Part shown: piece by piece, positions 54,929 to 64,000 of the stretch
Layout of the letters: each line of letters begins with the position of its first letter
Numbering within the stretch: the first letter of the stretch is position 1
Assembly (NCBI RefSeq): GCF_009189165.1
Contig: NZ_CP045118.1
Span: 2,232,001-2,296,000 of the forward strand
Length of the DNA stretch: 64,000 nt
Direction: 5' to 3'
From: Pseudomonas sp. SCB32
GTDB taxonomy: Bacteria; Pseudomonadota; Gammaproteobacteria; Pseudomonadales; Pseudomonadaceae
Position numbers and translations under genes: made by a program
Notes under the pieces: generated by a model
What the model saw: only the letters and a program-made list of their open reading frames with translations
Database searches by the model: none
What the model was told of the DNA's origin: nothing

Positions 54929-55546
54929 GTGGAAATCGCCTGTCTCGACCTGGAAGGGGTTCTGGTTCCGGAAATCTGGATCGCCTTCGCTGAAAAAACC
55001 GGTATCGAAGCGCTCAAGGCGACAACTCGCGATATTCCGGACTACGACGTGCTGATGAAGCAGCGTCTGCGCATCCTCGATGAGCACGGCCTGAAGCTGT
55101 CCGACATCCAGGAAGTGATCGCCACCCTGAAGCCCCTGGAAGGCGCAGTGGAATTCGTCGACTGGCTGCGTGAGCGCTTCCAGGTCGTGATCCTCTCCGA
55201 CACCTTCTACGAATTCTCCCAGCCGCTGATGCGCCAGCTCGGTTTCCCGACCCTGCTGTGCCACAAGCTGATCACCGACGAGACCGACCGCGTGGTTGGC
55301 TACCAGCTGCGCCAGAAAGACCCGAAGCGCCAGTCGGTTATCGCCTTCAAGAGCCTGTACTACCGTGTGATCGCCGCTGGCGACTCCTACAACGACACCA
55401 CCATGCTCTCCGAAGCCCACGCCGGCATCCTGTTCCACGCGCCGGACAACGTGATCCGCGAGTTCCCGCAGTTCCCGGCGGTGCACACCTATGAGGACCT
55501 GAAGAAGGAATTCCTCAAGGCGTCGAACCGTCAGCTCAGCCTGTAA
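54929..55546 (+). CDS. thrH: Phosphoserine/homoserine phosphotransferase
   Basis: HAD-fold enzyme that can dephosphorylate phosphoserine and transfer phosphate to homoserine. The 205-residue protein has motif I CLDLEGVLVPE, motif II ILSDTFYEF and motif IV GDSYNDTTMLSEA. Start is GTG 54929 with GGGGA upstream, and a TATAAG -10-like element lies at 54853. A terminator follows. Confidence 0.95.
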   Translation: MEIACLDLEGVLVPEIWIAFAEKTGIEALKATTRDIPDYDVLMKQRLRILDEHGLKLSDIQEVIATLKPLEGAVEFVDWLRERFQVVILSDTFYEFSQPLMRQLGFPTLLCHKLITDETDRVVGYQLRQKDPKRQSVIAFKSLYYRVIAAGDSYNDTTMLSEAHAGILFHAPDNVIREFPQFPAVHTYEDLKKEFLKASNRQLSL

Positions 55547-57188: not shown

Positions 57189-59897
57189 GTGGATGTAGTA
57201 CTTGAGCCCGCAGCCGGCAGCCTTTCGCGCTCCAGATTAACACCCCCTCAGGTGCCTGCTGATTATTTGATGCGTCCCCGACTCCAGAACGCTCTGGATC
57301 GTCATCCATACGCCTCCGTGCTTTCGTTCACCGCGCCGGTCGGTTTTGGCAAGACCACCGCCCTCGCGGCGCTGGCCAGGGCGCGTGAACATAGCGGCGA
57401 AGCCGTCGCCTGGATTTCGCTAGAGGAACAGGACGACGACCCCGGCCGCTTCTGCCTGAAGCTCATCCAGGCCTTGTCCGGCGCCTTGCCGGGCATCGGC
57501 GAGGATGCGCAGGGTTACCTGCAGAACACCATGCGCGTGCCGGTGGTGGCGGTGATGGAAAGCCTGCTGATCGACCTGTCGCGCCATGAGCACAAGGTCC
57601 TGCTGGTGCTGGACGACCTGCACGCGATCAACCACGCCGACGTGTTCACCGGCCTCAACCGTCTGGTGCAGTACGCACCAGACGGGCTCACCCTGGCCAT
57701 TGGCAGCCGCTCGCAACCGCCGCTGAACCTGGCTACCTGGCGCGCCAAGGGCCTACTCCTGGAAATCGGCCTGGACGAGCTGCGCCTGAGCCAGGACGAA
57801 ACCCGCGAATACCTCGCCCGCGACGGCCTGCAACTGGACGATAGCTGCCTGCAGAGCCTGCACAGCCAGACCGAAGGGTGGGTGGCCGGTGTGCACCTGG
57901 TCAGCCTGTGGCTGCGCCAGCAGCCGGGCACCCCGGAAGACCTCAAGCCGCTCAGCGCCGACAAGGCTGCCGTCGGCGATTACCTGCTGCGGGTGGTGTT
58001 CGAACGCCTGCCGGGCGATACCCAGGACGCGCTGCTGGCGCTGGGCATCGCCAATCGCCTGAGTGGCGACCTGGCCAACACCCTGACCGGCCGCCAGGAT
58101 GGCCAGGCCTTGCTGGAGCGTCTGGACAGCATGCAGCTGTTCCTCCTGCCGCTGGACCGTGACCGCCACTGGTACCGCTTCCACCAACTGTTCGCCGACT
58201 TCCTCCGTGAGCGTCTGCGCGAGCGTGATCCGGAGCGCTTCAAGCAACTGCACTTCAACGCCAGCCTGTGGTTCACCAACCACCACATGCCGACCCTGGC
58301 CATCGAGCACGCGTGCCTCGCCGAGGACCCGGAGATGCTTGCCGCGCTGGTGGATGGCTGCGGCCTGGAGCTGATCAACCGCGGCCAGCTGTACCTCATC
58401 TCGCGCTGGCGCCGCCATGTGCCCAACGAGATCGCCGAGCGCTATCCGATCCTGGTGCTCAGCGATGTCTGGACCCGCGCCTCGGAGCTCAGCCTGCCCG
58501 AAGCCAACCGCATGATCGATGAGCTGCTGGCGCGCTGGGGCGACCACAAGGGCAGCGGCCCGATGGGTGACCAGTACCTCTCTGCGTTGGCGGTCAAGGC
58601 CGTGCTGGCGCTGCAGAAGGACGACCTGGAGCAGTGCATCACCCTGGCCCGCAAGGTCGAGAGTCAGCTGGGGCGCAATTCGGCATTCCTTGAGGGTGCC
58701 GTGTTGCTGATCGCCGCCTTCGCCCAGGTGGTGCGCGGACAGGCCGACCAGGCTCGGCGGCTGATGGGGCTGGCGCAGCAGCGCAATCATTTCCTCGATG
58801 GCCGCTACCTGCACATGCAGCTCTCCACCATCGAGGTGCTGCTGGCGCTGGAGCAGGGCCAGGTGAAGCAGGCGCAGTTGCTTATCGAGCGCCTCCGCCA
58901 GCAGGCCATGCCGCTGTTCGACAAGCGTTCCCAGGCCCTGGCGCTGCCGACTATCGCCGAGGCGCTGACCGCCTACTACCGCACCGACATCGACGGCCTC
59001 GAAGAGCGCCTGCGCTGGGCGCTGGGGCGGGTCGACGTGATCAACCCGATCGATCTCTATGCCCAGGGCATGCAGTGCCTGGCGCGCATCCAGCGCCTGC
59101 AGGGGCGCGGCAAGGAGGCTTTGAGCACCCTCGGGCTGATGCAGACCCTGGCCTCGCGCAACCACTCCTGGCGCTTCTTCGCCATGGCAGTGGGCGAGGA
59201 AATCAACCTGATCCTCCAGGAGCCGGCCGCCGATCGCTGCAAGCGTGCCGAGCAGCGCCTGAAGGCCATCGACTGGCAGAAGCTCGCCAGCCACTACAAG
59301 CAGATGCCGTTCAACCCGGTGCTCTGGGTACTGGGCATCAGTCGTGTGCGCCTGTTGCAGGCGCGCGGGCATTTCAGCGAGGCGCTGCACGAGATCACCC
59401 AGCTGCGCGGCATGCTGCAGCCGGGGTGGCATGGCCTGCAGCGTCTGCGTCTGGACCTGCTGGCGGCGTTGAGCTACCAGCGCCTGGGGTACCAGGAACG
59501 TTCCCATAGCCTGCTCGGACAATGTCTGGTCGGCGCCGAGCGGGAAGGGGTGCGGAGCATTTTCATCGAAGAAGGTGAGGGGATTCGCCAGCTGTTGCAG
59601 CAGCTGGAATCCACTGAGCGACAACCGGCCTTGCAGGCATTCATTCGGGGAATGCTGAGCGTATGGCCGGGGCAGGAAGCACGCAGGTCGCCCGAAGCGC
59701 TCGAGGAAGGTCTGACCGACCGTGAGTGCGAGGTGGTGTGCCTGGCCGCGCAGGGGCTCTCCAACGAGGAGATCGGCCGACAGCTGTCGCTGGCGCTCGG
59801 TACCGTCAAATGGCACCTGCACAACATCTACGAGAAGCTCAAGGTACGCAATCGTACCCAGGCGATCCGCCGTGCCCGCGAGCTGAGTCTGCTCTGA
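57189..59897 (+). CDS. MalT-type ATP-dependent LuxR transcriptional regulator
   Basis: A 902-residue STAND-type activator. The N-terminal ATPase has Walker A GFGKTT (residues 52-57) and Walker B LLVLDDLHAI; the middle is a long alpha-helical repeat region; the C-terminus (about 838-900) is a LuxR helix-turn-helix, LTDRECEVVCLAAQGLSNEE with GTVKWHLHNIYEKL. Start is GTG. Directly followed without gap by a second regulator of the same type. The pair probably senses a small molecule and controls the fil-like genes downstream. Confidence 0.92.
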   Translation: MDVVLEPAAGSLSRSRLTPPQVPADYLMRPRLQNALDRHPYASVLSFTAPVGFGKTTALAALARAREHSGEAVAWISLEEQDDDPGRFCLKLIQALSGALPGIGEDAQGYLQNTMRVPVVAVMESLLIDLSRHEHKVLLVLDDLHAINHADVFTGLNRLVQYAPDGLTLAIGSRSQPPLNLATWRAKGLLLEIGLDELRLSQDETREYLARDGLQLDDSCLQSLHSQTEGWVAGVHLVSLWLRQQPGTPEDLKPLSADKAAVGDYLLRVVFERLPGDTQDALLALGIANRLSGDLANTLTGRQDGQALLERLDSMQLFLLPLDRDRHWYRFHQLFADFLRERLRERDPERFKQLHFNASLWFTNHHMPTLAIEHACLAEDPEMLAALVDGCGLELINRGQLYLISRWRRHVPNEIAERYPILVLSDVWTRASELSLPEANRMIDELLARWGDHKGSGPMGDQYLSALAVKAVLALQKDDLEQCITLARKVESQLGRNSAFLEGAVLLIAAFAQVVRGQADQARRLMGLAQQRNHFLDGRYLHMQLSTIEVLLALEQGQVKQAQLLIERLRQQAMPLFDKRSQALALPTIAEALTAYYRTDIDGLEERLRWALGRVDVINPIDLYAQGMQCLARIQRLQGRGKEALSTLGLMQTLASRNHSWRFFAMAVGEEINLILQEPAADRCKRAEQRLKAIDWQKLASHYKQMPFNPVLWVLGISRVRLLQARGHFSEALHEITQLRGMLQPGWHGLQRLRLDLLAALSYQRLGYQERSHSLLGQCLVGAEREGVRSIFIEEGEGIRQLLQQLESTERQPALQAFIRGMLSVWPGQEARRSPEALEEGLTDRECEVVCLAAQGLSNEEIGRQLSLALGTVKWHLHNIYEKLKVRNRTQAIRRARELSLL

Positions 59898-62621
59898 ATG
59901 ACGACCCTGACCTCCCTGCCGCAGCCGCCGATGCCGCTGCTGCGTACCAAACTGTTCCCGCCGCGCACCGACAGCACCGTTCTACTGCCGCGCCGTGCGC
60001 TGATCGATCGCCTGTTCGCCGCCCGCCAGCAGCGGGTACTGGTGCTCAGCGCGCCGGCGGGGTTCGGCAAGAGCACCGCGCTCAGCCTGTTCCGCCAACG
60101 CCTGCAGCAGAGCGGGGCGCGGGTGGCCTGGCTGTCCTGCGATGAGGGCGACAGCGAGCCGCAGCGCCTGGTGCAGTATTTGGTGGCGAGCATCAGCAGC
60201 GTCGAGGAAGGCTTCGGCGTCAACACCTCGAACCTGTTGCAGTCGGACATGACGTTGCCGCTGGAGGGCATCATCGATGCCTTTCTCTCCGACCTGCGGC
60301 GGCTCGATGGCCCGCTGTACCTGATCCTCGATGACTTCCACCAGATTCGCCATCCGGCCCTGGCCCACGGTGCGCGCTACCTGATCGAGCACCTGCCGGA
60401 GAACGTGAGGCTGGTCACCAGCACTCGTTATCGCCCGCGCTTTCTGGTCGATGAGCCGGCGCTCGCGCCGCTGACCTTCTGCCTGAGCGGCGACGACCTG
60501 CGCCTGACCCGCGAGGAGACCGATACCTACCTCATCGAGCTCAAGGGGCTGTCGCTCAGCGACGCCGAGCTCAAGCTGCTGCACAAGCGCACCGAGGGCT
60601 GGATCACCGCGCTGCACCTGGCGGCGCTGGCGCTGGCGCGACATCCGGACCGTGCGGCGTTCCTCAAGGGCTTGTCCGGCTCCGAGCGCGACCTTGCCGA
60701 CTACCTGGCCGAGGACGTGCTGTGCAGCCTGCCTGAGTCGCTTCAGCAGTTCCTCGACCAGACTTCGGTACTGGACGAGTTCTGCGCCGAGCTGTGCAAC
60801 GCACTGACCGGGCGCCGCGATGGCCTCGACATGCTGATGCGGCTGCAGAACGAGCAGTTGTTCATCATCCCGCTGGACGATCAGCGCGAATGGTTCCGCT
60901 ATCACCACCTGTTCGCCGAGTTCCTCCAGGGAAGGCTGGCCCGGCACTCGGACCCGACGCCGCTGCTGCACGCCGCCGCGCGCTGGTGCGAGAGCCACGA
61001 CATGGCCGACCGCGCGATCAAGTACGCATTGCGCGCCCGCGACTACGGTTTCGCCGCCGACCTGCTGGAGCGCCAGGGCGCCAGGCTGATTGCCGGCAAC
61101 CGTGTGTACGGCATCCTCGGCATGCTCGGCAGTATCCCGGCGGAGGTGATCCGCGAGCATCCGGTATTCCAGATCTTCTATGCCTGGCAACTGGCCTTCG
61201 AGCAGAAGTTCGCCGAGGCCGAGGCGCTGATCGAGGAGCTCAGCGTCCGGCTGCTGCAGGGGCAGGGTAAGGTGCGCAATTTCGGCCTGGCCGAGTTGCT
61301 GGCGGTGGCCCAGGTGCTCAAGGCGCTGGTGCTGCTGTATCAGGACAAGCTGGAGGGTTGCCTGAAGGTGGCCCGCCAGTGGCTGGCGCTGGTGCCGGGC
61401 AACCAGCCGGTGTTCCGCGCCAGCCTGTCGTGCATCCAGGCGGCGGCCTACGCGCTGCTGGGGGACTATGCCGATGCGGCGAGCGCCATCGGGGTCGCCC
61501 GCGAATGCCTGCGCATGGCCGACAGCGAATACCTGCAGGTCGTGGCGAGCATGATCGAGTCGCTGATCTGCAAGGAGCGCGGCGAGCTGGAGCGCGGTCG
61601 CACCATTGCCGAAAGCGCGCGCGGCCGGGTGGAGCGGGTGTTCGGCCGTCGCAGCCGGGTCGGTGGGCCGTTGTCGCTGGCCTATGCGGACATTCTCTAT
61701 GAGCAGGATCGGCACGCCGCGATTCTCGCCGAGCTGCCGTTGGCGACCACCTGGCGCGACGTCGCCACGCCCGTGGAGCTGCTCAGCCGTGGTCAGTTGG
61801 TAATGGCCAAGGCGCGCTTCTTCGCCGGCGAGTCCGAGCAAGGGTTGGCCCAGCTCGACGAATGGCTGGTCGGCCTGCAGTCGCCGGGCTACGAGCGGGT
61901 CTATGCGCTGGCCATGAGCTGCAAGGTGCAACTGCTGTTGTGGATGCGCCGGCCGAACGAGGCGGAGCGAGTGTGCCTGCAACTGGGGCGGCATCTTTCC
62001 GGGCTCTCCACCGAGCGTTACGCCGATGCCCAGGCCGCGCTGGTGATGGCGGAGGCGCGCCTGGCGCTGTCCGAGCGCCATGCCGAGCGTGCGCAACAGC
62101 GTCTGGAAGCCTGCCTGGCGGGCTTCACCTCACCCTTCCAGCGCGACCGGCGGTTGCGTCTGTCGTTGTTACTTTCTGTGGCGTTTTGGCAGAAAGGTAA
62201 CAGCGAAAAGGCCTTTGCCCTGTTCGCGCCAACGCTGGAAGAGGCGTGGAACCTGGGTTACCGCCGGCTGTTCCAGGACGATGCCCTGTGGCTGCTACCG
62301 CTGTGGGAAGCCTGGAAGGTCGCCGAGCCCAAGCGGGCCTCGGCCTGGCAAGGGGTGGCGGAAATGCTTCGCGAGCAATGCCGACGGCTCTCTGTTGACC
62401 CTGAAAGTTTCGATGAAAATCAAGATGTTAGTCACCGAGAGCGGGAGATCCTGCGGCTCGTGGCGGCGGGCTTGTCGAACCGGGATATCGCCCAGGCGGT
62501 GCATCTGTCGGAGGCCACCATCAAGTGGCACCTGCACAACCTGTTCGCCAAGCTCGGCGTGCGCAGCCGGACCCAGGCGGTACTCAAGGGCAAGAGCCTG
62601 GGGCTGCTCAGCGAAGCCTGA
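59898..62621 (+). CDS. Second MalT-type LuxR transcriptional regulator
   Basis: A 907-residue regulator of the same architecture, with Walker A GFGKS (residues 55-59), Walker B LYLILDDFHQI and LuxR domain REREILRLVAAGLSNRDIAQ... ATIKWHLHNLFAKL near the C-terminus. Its ATG follows the TGA of the first regulator at once, so the two are cotranscribed and translationally coupled. The two proteins are only moderately similar, so this is an old duplication; a heteromeric complex is possible. Confidence 0.92.
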   Translation: MTTLTSLPQPPMPLLRTKLFPPRTDSTVLLPRRALIDRLFAARQQRVLVLSAPAGFGKSTALSLFRQRLQQSGARVAWLSCDEGDSEPQRLVQYLVASISSVEEGFGVNTSNLLQSDMTLPLEGIIDAFLSDLRRLDGPLYLILDDFHQIRHPALAHGARYLIEHLPENVRLVTSTRYRPRFLVDEPALAPLTFCLSGDDLRLTREETDTYLIELKGLSLSDAELKLLHKRTEGWITALHLAALALARHPDRAAFLKGLSGSERDLADYLAEDVLCSLPESLQQFLDQTSVLDEFCAELCNALTGRRDGLDMLMRLQNEQLFIIPLDDQREWFRYHHLFAEFLQGRLARHSDPTPLLHAAARWCESHDMADRAIKYALRARDYGFAADLLERQGARLIAGNRVYGILGMLGSIPAEVIREHPVFQIFYAWQLAFEQKFAEAEALIEELSVRLLQGQGKVRNFGLAELLAVAQVLKALVLLYQDKLEGCLKVARQWLALVPGNQPVFRASLSCIQAAAYALLGDYADAASAIGVARECLRMADSEYLQVVASMIESLICKERGELERGRTIAESARGRVERVFGRRSRVGGPLSLAYADILYEQDRHAAILAELPLATTWRDVATPVELLSRGQLVMAKARFFAGESEQGLAQLDEWLVGLQSPGYERVYALAMSCKVQLLLWMRRPNEAERVCLQLGRHLSGLSTERYADAQAALVMAEARLALSERHAERAQQRLEACLAGFTSPFQRDRRLRLSLLLSVAFWQKGNSEKAFALFAPTLEEAWNLGYRRLFQDDALWLLPLWEAWKVAEPKRASAWQGVAEMLREQCRRLSVDPESFDENQDVSHREREILRLVAAGLSNRDIAQAVHLSEATIKWHLHNLFAKLGVRSRTQAVLKGKSLGLLSEA

Positions 62622-62699
62622 GTCAGACGGTGGGGTTGCGCCATCCCTTGGATGGGCTGGCAGGTGGGGGGCGGGTCAGTAGCTTGGAGATCAGGACGC

Positions 62700-62809
62700 G
62701 AAGCATGGTGCTTCACGAATCCATACCCACGACGCCTAGGGAAGCAGTCGTGGGTCTGGACGGCCGGCGTAGCTGGCCGACCTGCAGCGGGGCAGGACGC
62801 CCCTTGCAG
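62700..62809 (+). promoter_or_regulatory. Structured leader of the FilA-like gene, four hairpins
   Basis: In the 228-bp gap before the FilA-like gene: GAAGCA-TGG-TGCTTC (62700-62714), ACCCACGAC-13-GTCGTGGGT (62725-62755), CGGCC-ggcgtagct-GGCCG (62761-62779) and CTGCA-gc-GGGGC-aggac-GCCCC-t-TGCAG (62782-62809). They are stacked with 1-10 base spacers and end 40 bases before the start codon, like a cis-acting mRNA leader. No known riboswitch is recognised. Confidence 0.55.
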
Positions 62810-62849
62810 TGCCTGGGGCAACCCACCTGAACACTGGAGAGAAATAACA

Positions 62850-63308
62850 ATGAAAAAAATCAAGCAACTGGTTCTTGCAAGCGCAGTTCTGGCTACTCCG
62901 TTCCTGGCACATGCCGACATGCAATCCATGGATGACGCTGCTCTGTCCGGTGTGACCGGCCAGGACGGTATCAGCATCGCCGGTACCTTCAACGCACAGA
63001 TCGGCTCCATCACCTACAAGGACGCCGACGCCGGCGGCGGTTCCCTGGTTCTGTCGGGCATCCACCTGCCCAGCATCACCATCGCCGACAACGCCCCGAT
63101 GACCATCGACGTGGTGACCACCAACATCACCCCGGCCGGTGGCGGCACCGCTGTTGCCACCCAACAGCTCGCTATCGGCCTGCCCTCCGTGACTGGCGAC
63201 GTGACCGTCGACGCCATCAAGGTTGGCGCTACTGGCAACAGCATCGGCTCCCTGACCGTTTCCAACCTGAACCTGGCGGGCTCCACCGTGAAGGTCTGGG
63301 GTCACTGA
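62850..63308 (+). CDS. filA: FilA-like secreted protein (DUF6160)
   Basis: A 152-residue exported protein. The signal peptide MKKIKQLVLASAVLATPFLA is followed by DMQSMDDAALSGVTGQDGIS, the N-terminal signature of DUF6160/FilA-type putative pilus-system proteins of Acinetobacter and Pseudomonas. The rest is a Gly/Thr/Ser-rich beta-strand repeat-like region. ATG 62850 has GGAGAG upstream; longer in-frame starts lie inside the leader hairpins. Symbol is by family analogy only. Confidence 0.72.
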   Translation: MKKIKQLVLASAVLATPFLAHADMQSMDDAALSGVTGQDGISIAGTFNAQIGSITYKDADAGGGSLVLSGIHLPSITIADNAPMTIDVVTTNITPAGGGTAVATQQLAIGLPSVTGDVTVDAIKVGATGNSIGSLTVSNLNLAGSTVKVWGH

Positions 63309-63333
63309 TCCCCGAGGTTGCACGCGCAGTAAC

Positions 63334-63357
63334 CCTTGCCGGCGCCTGCCGGCAAGG
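63334..63357 (+). promoter_or_regulatory. Hairpin between FilA-like and C39-like genes
   Basis: A perfect 10-bp stem CCTTGCCGGC-GCCT-GCCGGCAAGG without a T run, 26 bases after the filA stop and 32 bases before the next start. It may be a partial terminator or mRNA-stability element that allows more FilA than downstream product. Confidence 0.6.
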
Positions 63358-63388
63358 TCCTTCCGGGTGTTGAGTAGTAGGGGGTGGG

Positions 63389-64000
63389 ATGTTCGAGATT
63401 CTGCTGGGAAGCCTGCTGGGGCTGTTCGGATTTACCCAGGCCGTGGATACCAAGCCACAACCGCAGGGCACAGTGAACATCTCGCAACAGCTCACACCCA
63501 ATGGTCCGCTCCGCGAGTCGGTGCAGCTTGAACCGATGAGCCAGGTGCAGTTCCGCAATGTCATCCACCAGGCCTATGACTACAGCTGCGGCTCGGCGGC
63601 GCTGACCACACTGCTGGACTACTACCTGGGGCGCAATTTGGAAGAGCGTCAGGTCATGGAGGGCCTGATCAAGTACGGCGAGGCCGACAAGATCGTCCAG
63701 CGCCGTGGGTTCTCGCTTCTGGACATGAAGCGCTACGCCGCCGCACTCGGCTACAAGAGTGGTGGCTTCCGTGCCGAGTTCTCCGACCTGGACTCGCTCG
63801 AACACCCGGCGCTGGTGCCGATCCACTATGCCGGCTTCAAGCATTTCGTCGTGGTCCGCGACGTCTACAACGACCACGTTTTCGTTGCCGATCCTGCCTT
63901 GGGCAACATCAGTTTCACCCGCGCCCGTTTCGAAGATATCTGGGACCAGAACGTCCTGTTCGTCATCTACCCCAGTGGCCAGGAGCCCAGGAATGCCCTG
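63389..64000 (+). CDS. filB: C39-peptidase-like protein (FilB-like), 3' truncated by window edge
   Basis: The first 204 codons of a gene that runs off the window. After a hydrophobic N-terminus (MFEILLGSLLGLFGFTQA, probable signal or anchor) comes a C39-type papain-fold domain with Q61 and C67 in HQAYDYSCGSAALTTL, H152 in FKHFVVVRD and D168 in VADPALGN, the full catalytic set. C39 peptidases usually cut double-glycine leaders, but in Fil loci the related protein is annotated only as a putative pilus component. GGGGGTGG lies before ATG 63389. Confidence 0.72.
   Translation, partial: MFEILLGSLLGLFGFTQAVDTKPQPQGTVNISQQLTPNGPLRESVQLEPMSQVQFRNVIHQAYDYSCGSAALTTLLDYYLGRNLEERQVMEGLIKYGEADKIVQRRGFSLLDMKRYAAALGYKSGGFRAEFSDLDSLEHPALVPIHYAGFKHFVVVRDVYNDHVFVADPALGNISFTRARFEDIWDQNVLFVIYPSGQEPRNAL

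Follow-up and report, generated by a model that had tools for sequence, protein, structure and literature searches.

What a locus does that sets two large regulators, a small secreted protein and a peptidase side by side is the question raised by the end of the window studied here, i.e. the 64,000 nucleotides at positions 2232001-2296000 of the single-contig 6.31-Mb genome of Pseudomonas sp. SCB32. A sequence-only reading had called this a Fil-type pilus or secretion locus, with a DUF6160/FilA-type protein and a C39-like protein carrying a complete Q-C-H-D set; the label was right, but it left the locus unexplained. Both protein assignments held, since the filA product matches DUF6160 at E=4.7e-24 (84.9 bits; cut-off 27) and the filB product matches Peptidase_C39 at E=1.4e-20. 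Following the results below, it is likely that the locus encodes a pilus-like filament together with a dedicated export core, with removal of the signals of FilA in two steps. The genes concerned are as follows (numbering of the last three is continued beyond the window; aa, amino acids):

62850..63308, + strand: filA, precursor of the probable pilin, 152 aa, DUF6160 profile match
62928..62963, + strand: residues 27-38 of FilA, MDDAALSGVTGQ, the second leader; cut predicted at Q38/D39
63389..64000 in the window and on to 64150, + strand: filB, C39 peptidase, 253 aa, Peptidase_C39 match
64196-65203: filC, Phenol_MetA_deg
65222-66820: filD, Toluene_X/FadL
66832-68016: filE, DUF4124 and MalM

FilA has a second leader, MDDAALSGVTGQ, right behind the Sec signal; it resembles the double-glycine leaders cut by C39 enzymes and has Q at position -1. 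The consensus of double-glycine leaders is LSxxELxxIxG(G/A/S), to which the FilA leader aligns without gaps, agreeing in the hydrophobic residues at -12, -7 and -4 and in Gly -2, and departing at -11, -8 and -1. A tblastn scan of named genomes recovered the leader in 43/43 FilA sequences (e.g. ADLKA-MDDSALSGVTGQ), while D28, G37, Q38 and G40 are invariant in 44 sequences. In the AlphaFold model of FilA, residues 2-36 form a single helix (low confidence) and strands follow from residue 45. At the other end of FilA, a terminal WGH (window 63297-63305) is present in 42/43 sequences and could possibly be an assembly or exit signal; the shuffle comparisons that accompany this count, as well as those of the catalytic residues and the spacer repeat given below, do not allow for common descent.

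The predicted cut coincides with the start of a solved filament. PDB 9xfv ('pilus-like-alpha', known here by its title, molecule name and sequence) has a DUF6160 subunit derived from a Burkholderiales-type precursor and related to FilA; its chain starts exactly behind ...SGQ of that precursor and ends in ...MWAH, compared with ...VWGH in FilA (the precursor thus having WAH in place of WGH).

The enzyme that makes this cut would be FilB. Its Q61, C67, H152 and D168 are each kept in 47/47 C39 relatives (from one scan of named genomes), it has the papain-like fold with Cys-His-Asp and the oxyanion Gln, and its core matches a C39 domain that was solved with a leader peptide (6mpz). FilB is predicted to be periplasmic and to cut after the double-glycine-type leader.

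DUF6160 proteins and FilB occur together across genomes. C39 matches were counted as strong FilB when they preceded a large jump in E-value, a boundary drawn after the results had been seen. Strong matches thereby have E-values of at most 1e-97 in the order sample (the next match being at 1.6e-55), at most 3.9e-130 in the family sample (next 2.7e-39) and at most 2.2e-78 in the class sample (next 2.1e-44), these samples overlapping through shared genomes. Such matches were present in 16/145, 49/198 and 4/185 genomes, respectively, all of which have DUF6160 (16/16, 49/49 and 4/4, G346 being counted on sub-cut-off matches only), compared with 3/129, 1/149 and 0/181 of the genomes without a strong FilB (Fisher values 1e-18, 6e-46 and 2e-8, with phylogeny ignored). 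The exceptions are a 75% complete genome (G002), G016, which has a C39 at 1.6e-55, and G057 and G226 with one sub-cut-off match each. Genomes with only a FapD-like C39 mostly lack DUF6160, which was found in 1/43 of them in the family sample (sub-cut-off), 0/19 in the class sample and 1/6 in the order sample (G016), so that the link lies with FilB and not with any periplasmic C39 peptidase. In G346 and in G474, which lies outside the order, the best NCBIfam matches of the C39 and channel genes are pilus_FilB and pilus_FilC.

The leader is also found on proteins encoded far from the locus, which are otherwise dissimilar, exported, and track FilB. The SCB32 genome encodes at least four, one at L057:6349-6897 and three in consecutive genes at L058:10555-7391 (within genome positions 5193001-5210000, minus strand). 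The products of this trio, of 352, 527 and 174 aa, all bear the second leader, similar trios are present in two genomes of the same genus (L124 and L128), and a second leader-protein operon is likely. G474 has 15 DUF6160 matches on ten contigs, all small (94-141 aa from the match start), with a mean pairwise identity of 0.50 in the leader, 0.16 over the next six residues and 0.09 over the next thirty. When these were aligned by eye with three from G346 (all found with the DUF6160 hidden Markov model, without motif filter), G at -2 and L/M at -7 were present in 18/18, Q at -1 in 16/18 and E/D at -8 in 15/18. On these sequences, the conserved stretch is a leader and not a domain.

Larger sets agree, within limits set by how they were drawn. 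Among the 92 listed DUF6160 matches of the order sample, 80 fit a loose leader motif (not inspected singly), 2 were not fetched and 10 do not fit, having Y/F at -4 (five), A at -2 (four) or no leader (one). A set of 66 leaders (69 open reading frames minus two false ones and one duplicate) has G at -2 in 66/66, which is partly circular because a motif filter had been used to draw it up. The control consisted of 429 distinct signal-peptide-like open reading frames from the fetched loci (mostly fil or fap neighbours in related genomes); the 34 strict leader matches consisted of 30 FilA-type proteins and four DUF6160-type proteins from L054/L058, while 19 FapE proteins were among the loose matches.

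FapE belongs to the Fap amyloid exporter, to which the second-best matches of the locus also lead. The best NCBIfam matches of four locus proteins are FilA, FilB, FilC and FilD of a 'putative pilus system', none of them reaching its curated cut-off (57/220, 297/475, 317/630 and 524/970); next come FapD for FilB (119.6 bits, equivalog cut-off 330) and FapF for FilC (68.8 bits, cut-off 700), again both below. FilC matches the FapF crystal chains at E=1.1e-12, its sole clear PDB sequence match, and FilB and FilC thus appear to be relatives of FapD and FapF. The target of FapD is described as unclear, with FapE suspected from GG/GA motifs and missing peptides, and the Fap proteins as being without canonical C39 sequences, such that the class may recognise another sequence (PMC5557850, PMC6173800). 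A total of 23 loci were fetched around FapD-like C39 matches (21 of 66 places in the family sample, 2 in the order sample). FapE is present in 22 of these and has a leader after its signal peptide in 22/22 (e.g. ELSDSELAQLRGR), where G always stands at -2 and either R or K at -1; FapA is present in 21, in many with a ELSDSDFAGVTSG-like stretch further in (FapE and FapA leaders counted by eye). The 23rd locus, L151, instead encodes, twice in tandem and next to C39 genes, a Sec-type protein whose leader has a true GG (LSDPELSEYRGG); only residues 9-60 of this protein, the part containing the leader, match the first 52 positions of FapE (NCBIfam, E=1.2e-4). L151 is a relative of Fap: the best NCBIfam match of its C39 is FapD and that of the adjoining channel gene FapF, and its tandem duplication (L151:3988-10465) comprises an N/D-rich repeat protein, a 126-aa protein (MSADQLADSSGR), the C39 gene and the 167-aa GG-leader protein. 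According to a review, fapD-fapF pairs occur in five further phyla (PMC6173800). The leader offers a concrete candidate site in FapE, with a cut predicted near residue 40.

A cut of FapE near residue 40 fits the missing N-terminal peptides, but is not enough to account for the lack of peptides as far as residue 70. In the order set of 66 sequences, positions +2/+3 are partly conserved, which a pure leader would not need. This would agree with FilB being needed for export while cutting another component (e.g. FilC), in which case the Gly-Gln leader would serve for docking and be removed by another protease or kept; cutting of FapF has been proposed as an alternative for Fap (PMC5557850). Such a role is nevertheless unlikely, as the leader resembles the class recognised by C39 enzymes, the FilB core matches the leader-bound domain of 6mpz, leader bearers track FilB more than they do FapD-like C39s, and 9xfv begins at the predicted site.

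Kinship of FilB with FapD and of FilC with FapF could also mean that the product is a Fap-like functional amyloid and not a pilus of folded subunits, with which the reported rise of FilC (71-fold) and FilF (12-fold) in Acinetobacter baumannii biofilm (PMC8792954) would be compatible. This is quite improbable: searches with Pfam and NCBIfam found no FapA/B/C/E-like gene in the locus, and 9xfv, the one structure significantly related to FilA, is annotated as pilus-like. A scan of the locus proteins gave no chaperone or usher Pfam match either. In G346, FilC has an N-terminal OmpA domain and lies behind a separate OmpA-family gene (L193:5113-7860), which suggests anchoring of the channel to peptidoglycan.

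Another possible function is the uptake of hydrophobic compounds, whereby FilD and FilC would import lipids or hydrocarbons with FilE in the periplasm, the MalT-type regulators would sense the substrate and FilA would be a minor surface binder. FilD is clearly of the Toluene_X/FadL family (E=5.6e-113) with a weak AupA match, the only Pfam label of FilC is Phenol_MetA_deg, and the structural kin of FapF are described as hydrophobic-uptake channels (PMC6173800). Counting genes from thrH (PA1757 in a table of PMC12431658) to PA1764, a FadL homologue tabulated in PMC6137939, with the PA7 locus L018 as a guide, fits the fil order, from which we infer that FilA and FilB are PA1761 and PA1762 in P. 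aeruginosa; in a rubB mutant these are raised 13.5- and 17.9-fold, alongside lipid-use genes (PMC12431658). Even so, uptake is a rather improbable function. FapF, the second NCBIfam match and only clear PDB match of FilC, is an exporter, FilA has a filament-forming relative, in G474 FilB and FilC are without adjoining FilD or FilE (the remaining G474 genome was not searched for them), and the leader would be left unexplained.

The leader, its tracking with FilB, the start of 9xfv and the leader of FapE together indicate that FilA is probably a pilin, FilB the remover of its leader and FilC its exporter. In the proposed filament pathway, newly made FilA would bear a Sec signal and, behind it, a 12-residue double-glycine-class leader with Gly-Gln at its end. 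Once the protein had been exported by Sec and had lost its signal, FilB would bind the leader in the periplasm and cut behind Gln38, upon which the freed beta-rich domain would leave through FilC, as a FapF-type outer-membrane channel, and polymerise into the filament. Proteins from other parts of the genome that bear this leader would use the same FilB and presumably the same exit, FilD (FadL-type) and FilE (MalM-type) would be accessory, and the two regulators, R1 and R2, would switch on filA and the genes behind it via a repeat at 62641-62663. The upstream features are:

54929-55546: thrH (TIGR02137), before pabB
57189..59897, + strand: R1, MalT/LAL-type LuxR regulator, 902 aa, GTG start, GerE and TPR_MalT
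59898..62621, + strand: R2, MalT/LAL-type LuxR regulator, 907 aa, GerE and TPR_MalT
62641..62663, + strand: inverted repeat CCATCCnTTGGATGG with flank, conserved in the spacer between R2 and filA, candidate site for a regulator

As had been read from the sequence, the regulators are two LuxR activators of about 900 residues with zero bases between them. They are 30% identical, both match GerE and TPR_MalT above the Pfam cut-offs, and each combines a Walker A NTPase motif, the MalT TPR region and a GerE helix-turn-helix. They do lie upstream of filA, though not directly, as a spacer of 228 bases with the inverted repeat intervenes. The repeat is exact in 37/42 R2-filA spacers and has at most one mismatch in 40/42; its 19-base pattern has a single exact match genome-wide, with 11 further places at 2-3 mismatches (4 for the backward control).

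Extension of the contig for FilC-F type genes yielded FilC, FilD and FilE, after which an ATP-grasp gene follows on the opposite strand; filF is not present behind filE in the downstream contig (the remaining genome was not searched). FilC and FilD matches follow the C39 gene in 47/47 relatives, and the order pabB, R1, R2, FilA, C39, FilC, FilD, FilE is kept in 41/47, which means that the arrangement is not due to chance. This count includes L016 and L035, where the best regulator matches are partial (R2 residues 279-907 and R1 residues 1-827, respectively) and the copies may be decayed or mis-assembled. The contig of L043 begins within R2, that of L052 (a Moraxellaceae metagenome-assembled genome, MAG) is too short to judge the regulators, and regulator matches are absent in L051 (Mangrovitalea, with no FilA found within 10 kb), L054 (an unclassified MAG) and L055 and L056 (Acinetobacter). 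Because pabB also flanks L054 and both Acinetobacter loci, this location of the locus is probably ancient, and the regulators are probably a feature of the Pseudomonas group. L054 has three tandem FilA-type genes ahead of filB, the last two nearly identical (L054:6800-9794).

Compared with known systems, the Acinetobacter fil locus (FilA-F, NCBIfam NF050077-NF050080) has the same order of FilA, C39 FilB, FilC, FadL-type FilD and FilE beside pabB, whereas here FilF does not follow filE, two LuxR regulators are added and the NCBIfam scores stay below the cut-offs. Fap (FapA-F) shares a Sec-exported C39 peptidase, a related outer-membrane channel and, on FapE, the same kind of leader after the signal peptide, but differs in its FapA/B/C/E components and in position -1 (R/K in FapE, Q here), while the proposed Fil substrates are DUF6160 proteins, both in the locus and scattered. 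PCAT/bacteriocin exporters (PCAT1, ComA, 6mpz) share the C39 fold, the catalytic set and the leader class of FilA. Their C39 domains, however, belong to ABC transporters and lie in the cytosol (PMC5557850), whereas here the leader stands behind a Sec signal and Pfam found no ABC gene among the open reading frames of the locus. The nearest published precedent found for a C39 peptidase with a FapF-type channel and leader peptides is the Neisseria nap island, where NapP (C39) and the FapF-like channel NapF export GG peptides and periplasmic cutting is proposed; as described there, it differs by its small cationic peptides with a true GG, its role in autolysis and the lack of a pilin (PMC11798529).

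With leaders ending in Gly-Gln in Fil, Gly-Arg/Lys in FapE and Gly-Gly in the L151 relative, and up to 15 leader-family DUF6160 matches seen in one genome, it is somewhat more probable than otherwise that this route of export is a general one, with a Sec signal plus a C39-readable leader, a dedicated periplasmic peptidase and a FapF-type channel allowing one peptidase to serve many unlinked surface proteins, and that P. aeruginosa has an undescribed pilus of this kind. Such a pathway would be roughly an N-terminal counterpart of PEP-CTERM/exosortase sorting. The leader predicts the cut site for a whole class of uncharacterised peptidases and, being common to FilA, the dispersed DUF6160 proteins and FapE, would give one testable answer, with a predicted bond, to the question of the FapD target. 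If true, DUF6160 would gain a function, an orphan cryo-EM filament would be linked to the genes that probably assemble it, and attention would be drawn to a filament of Pseudomonas species that has been little studied.
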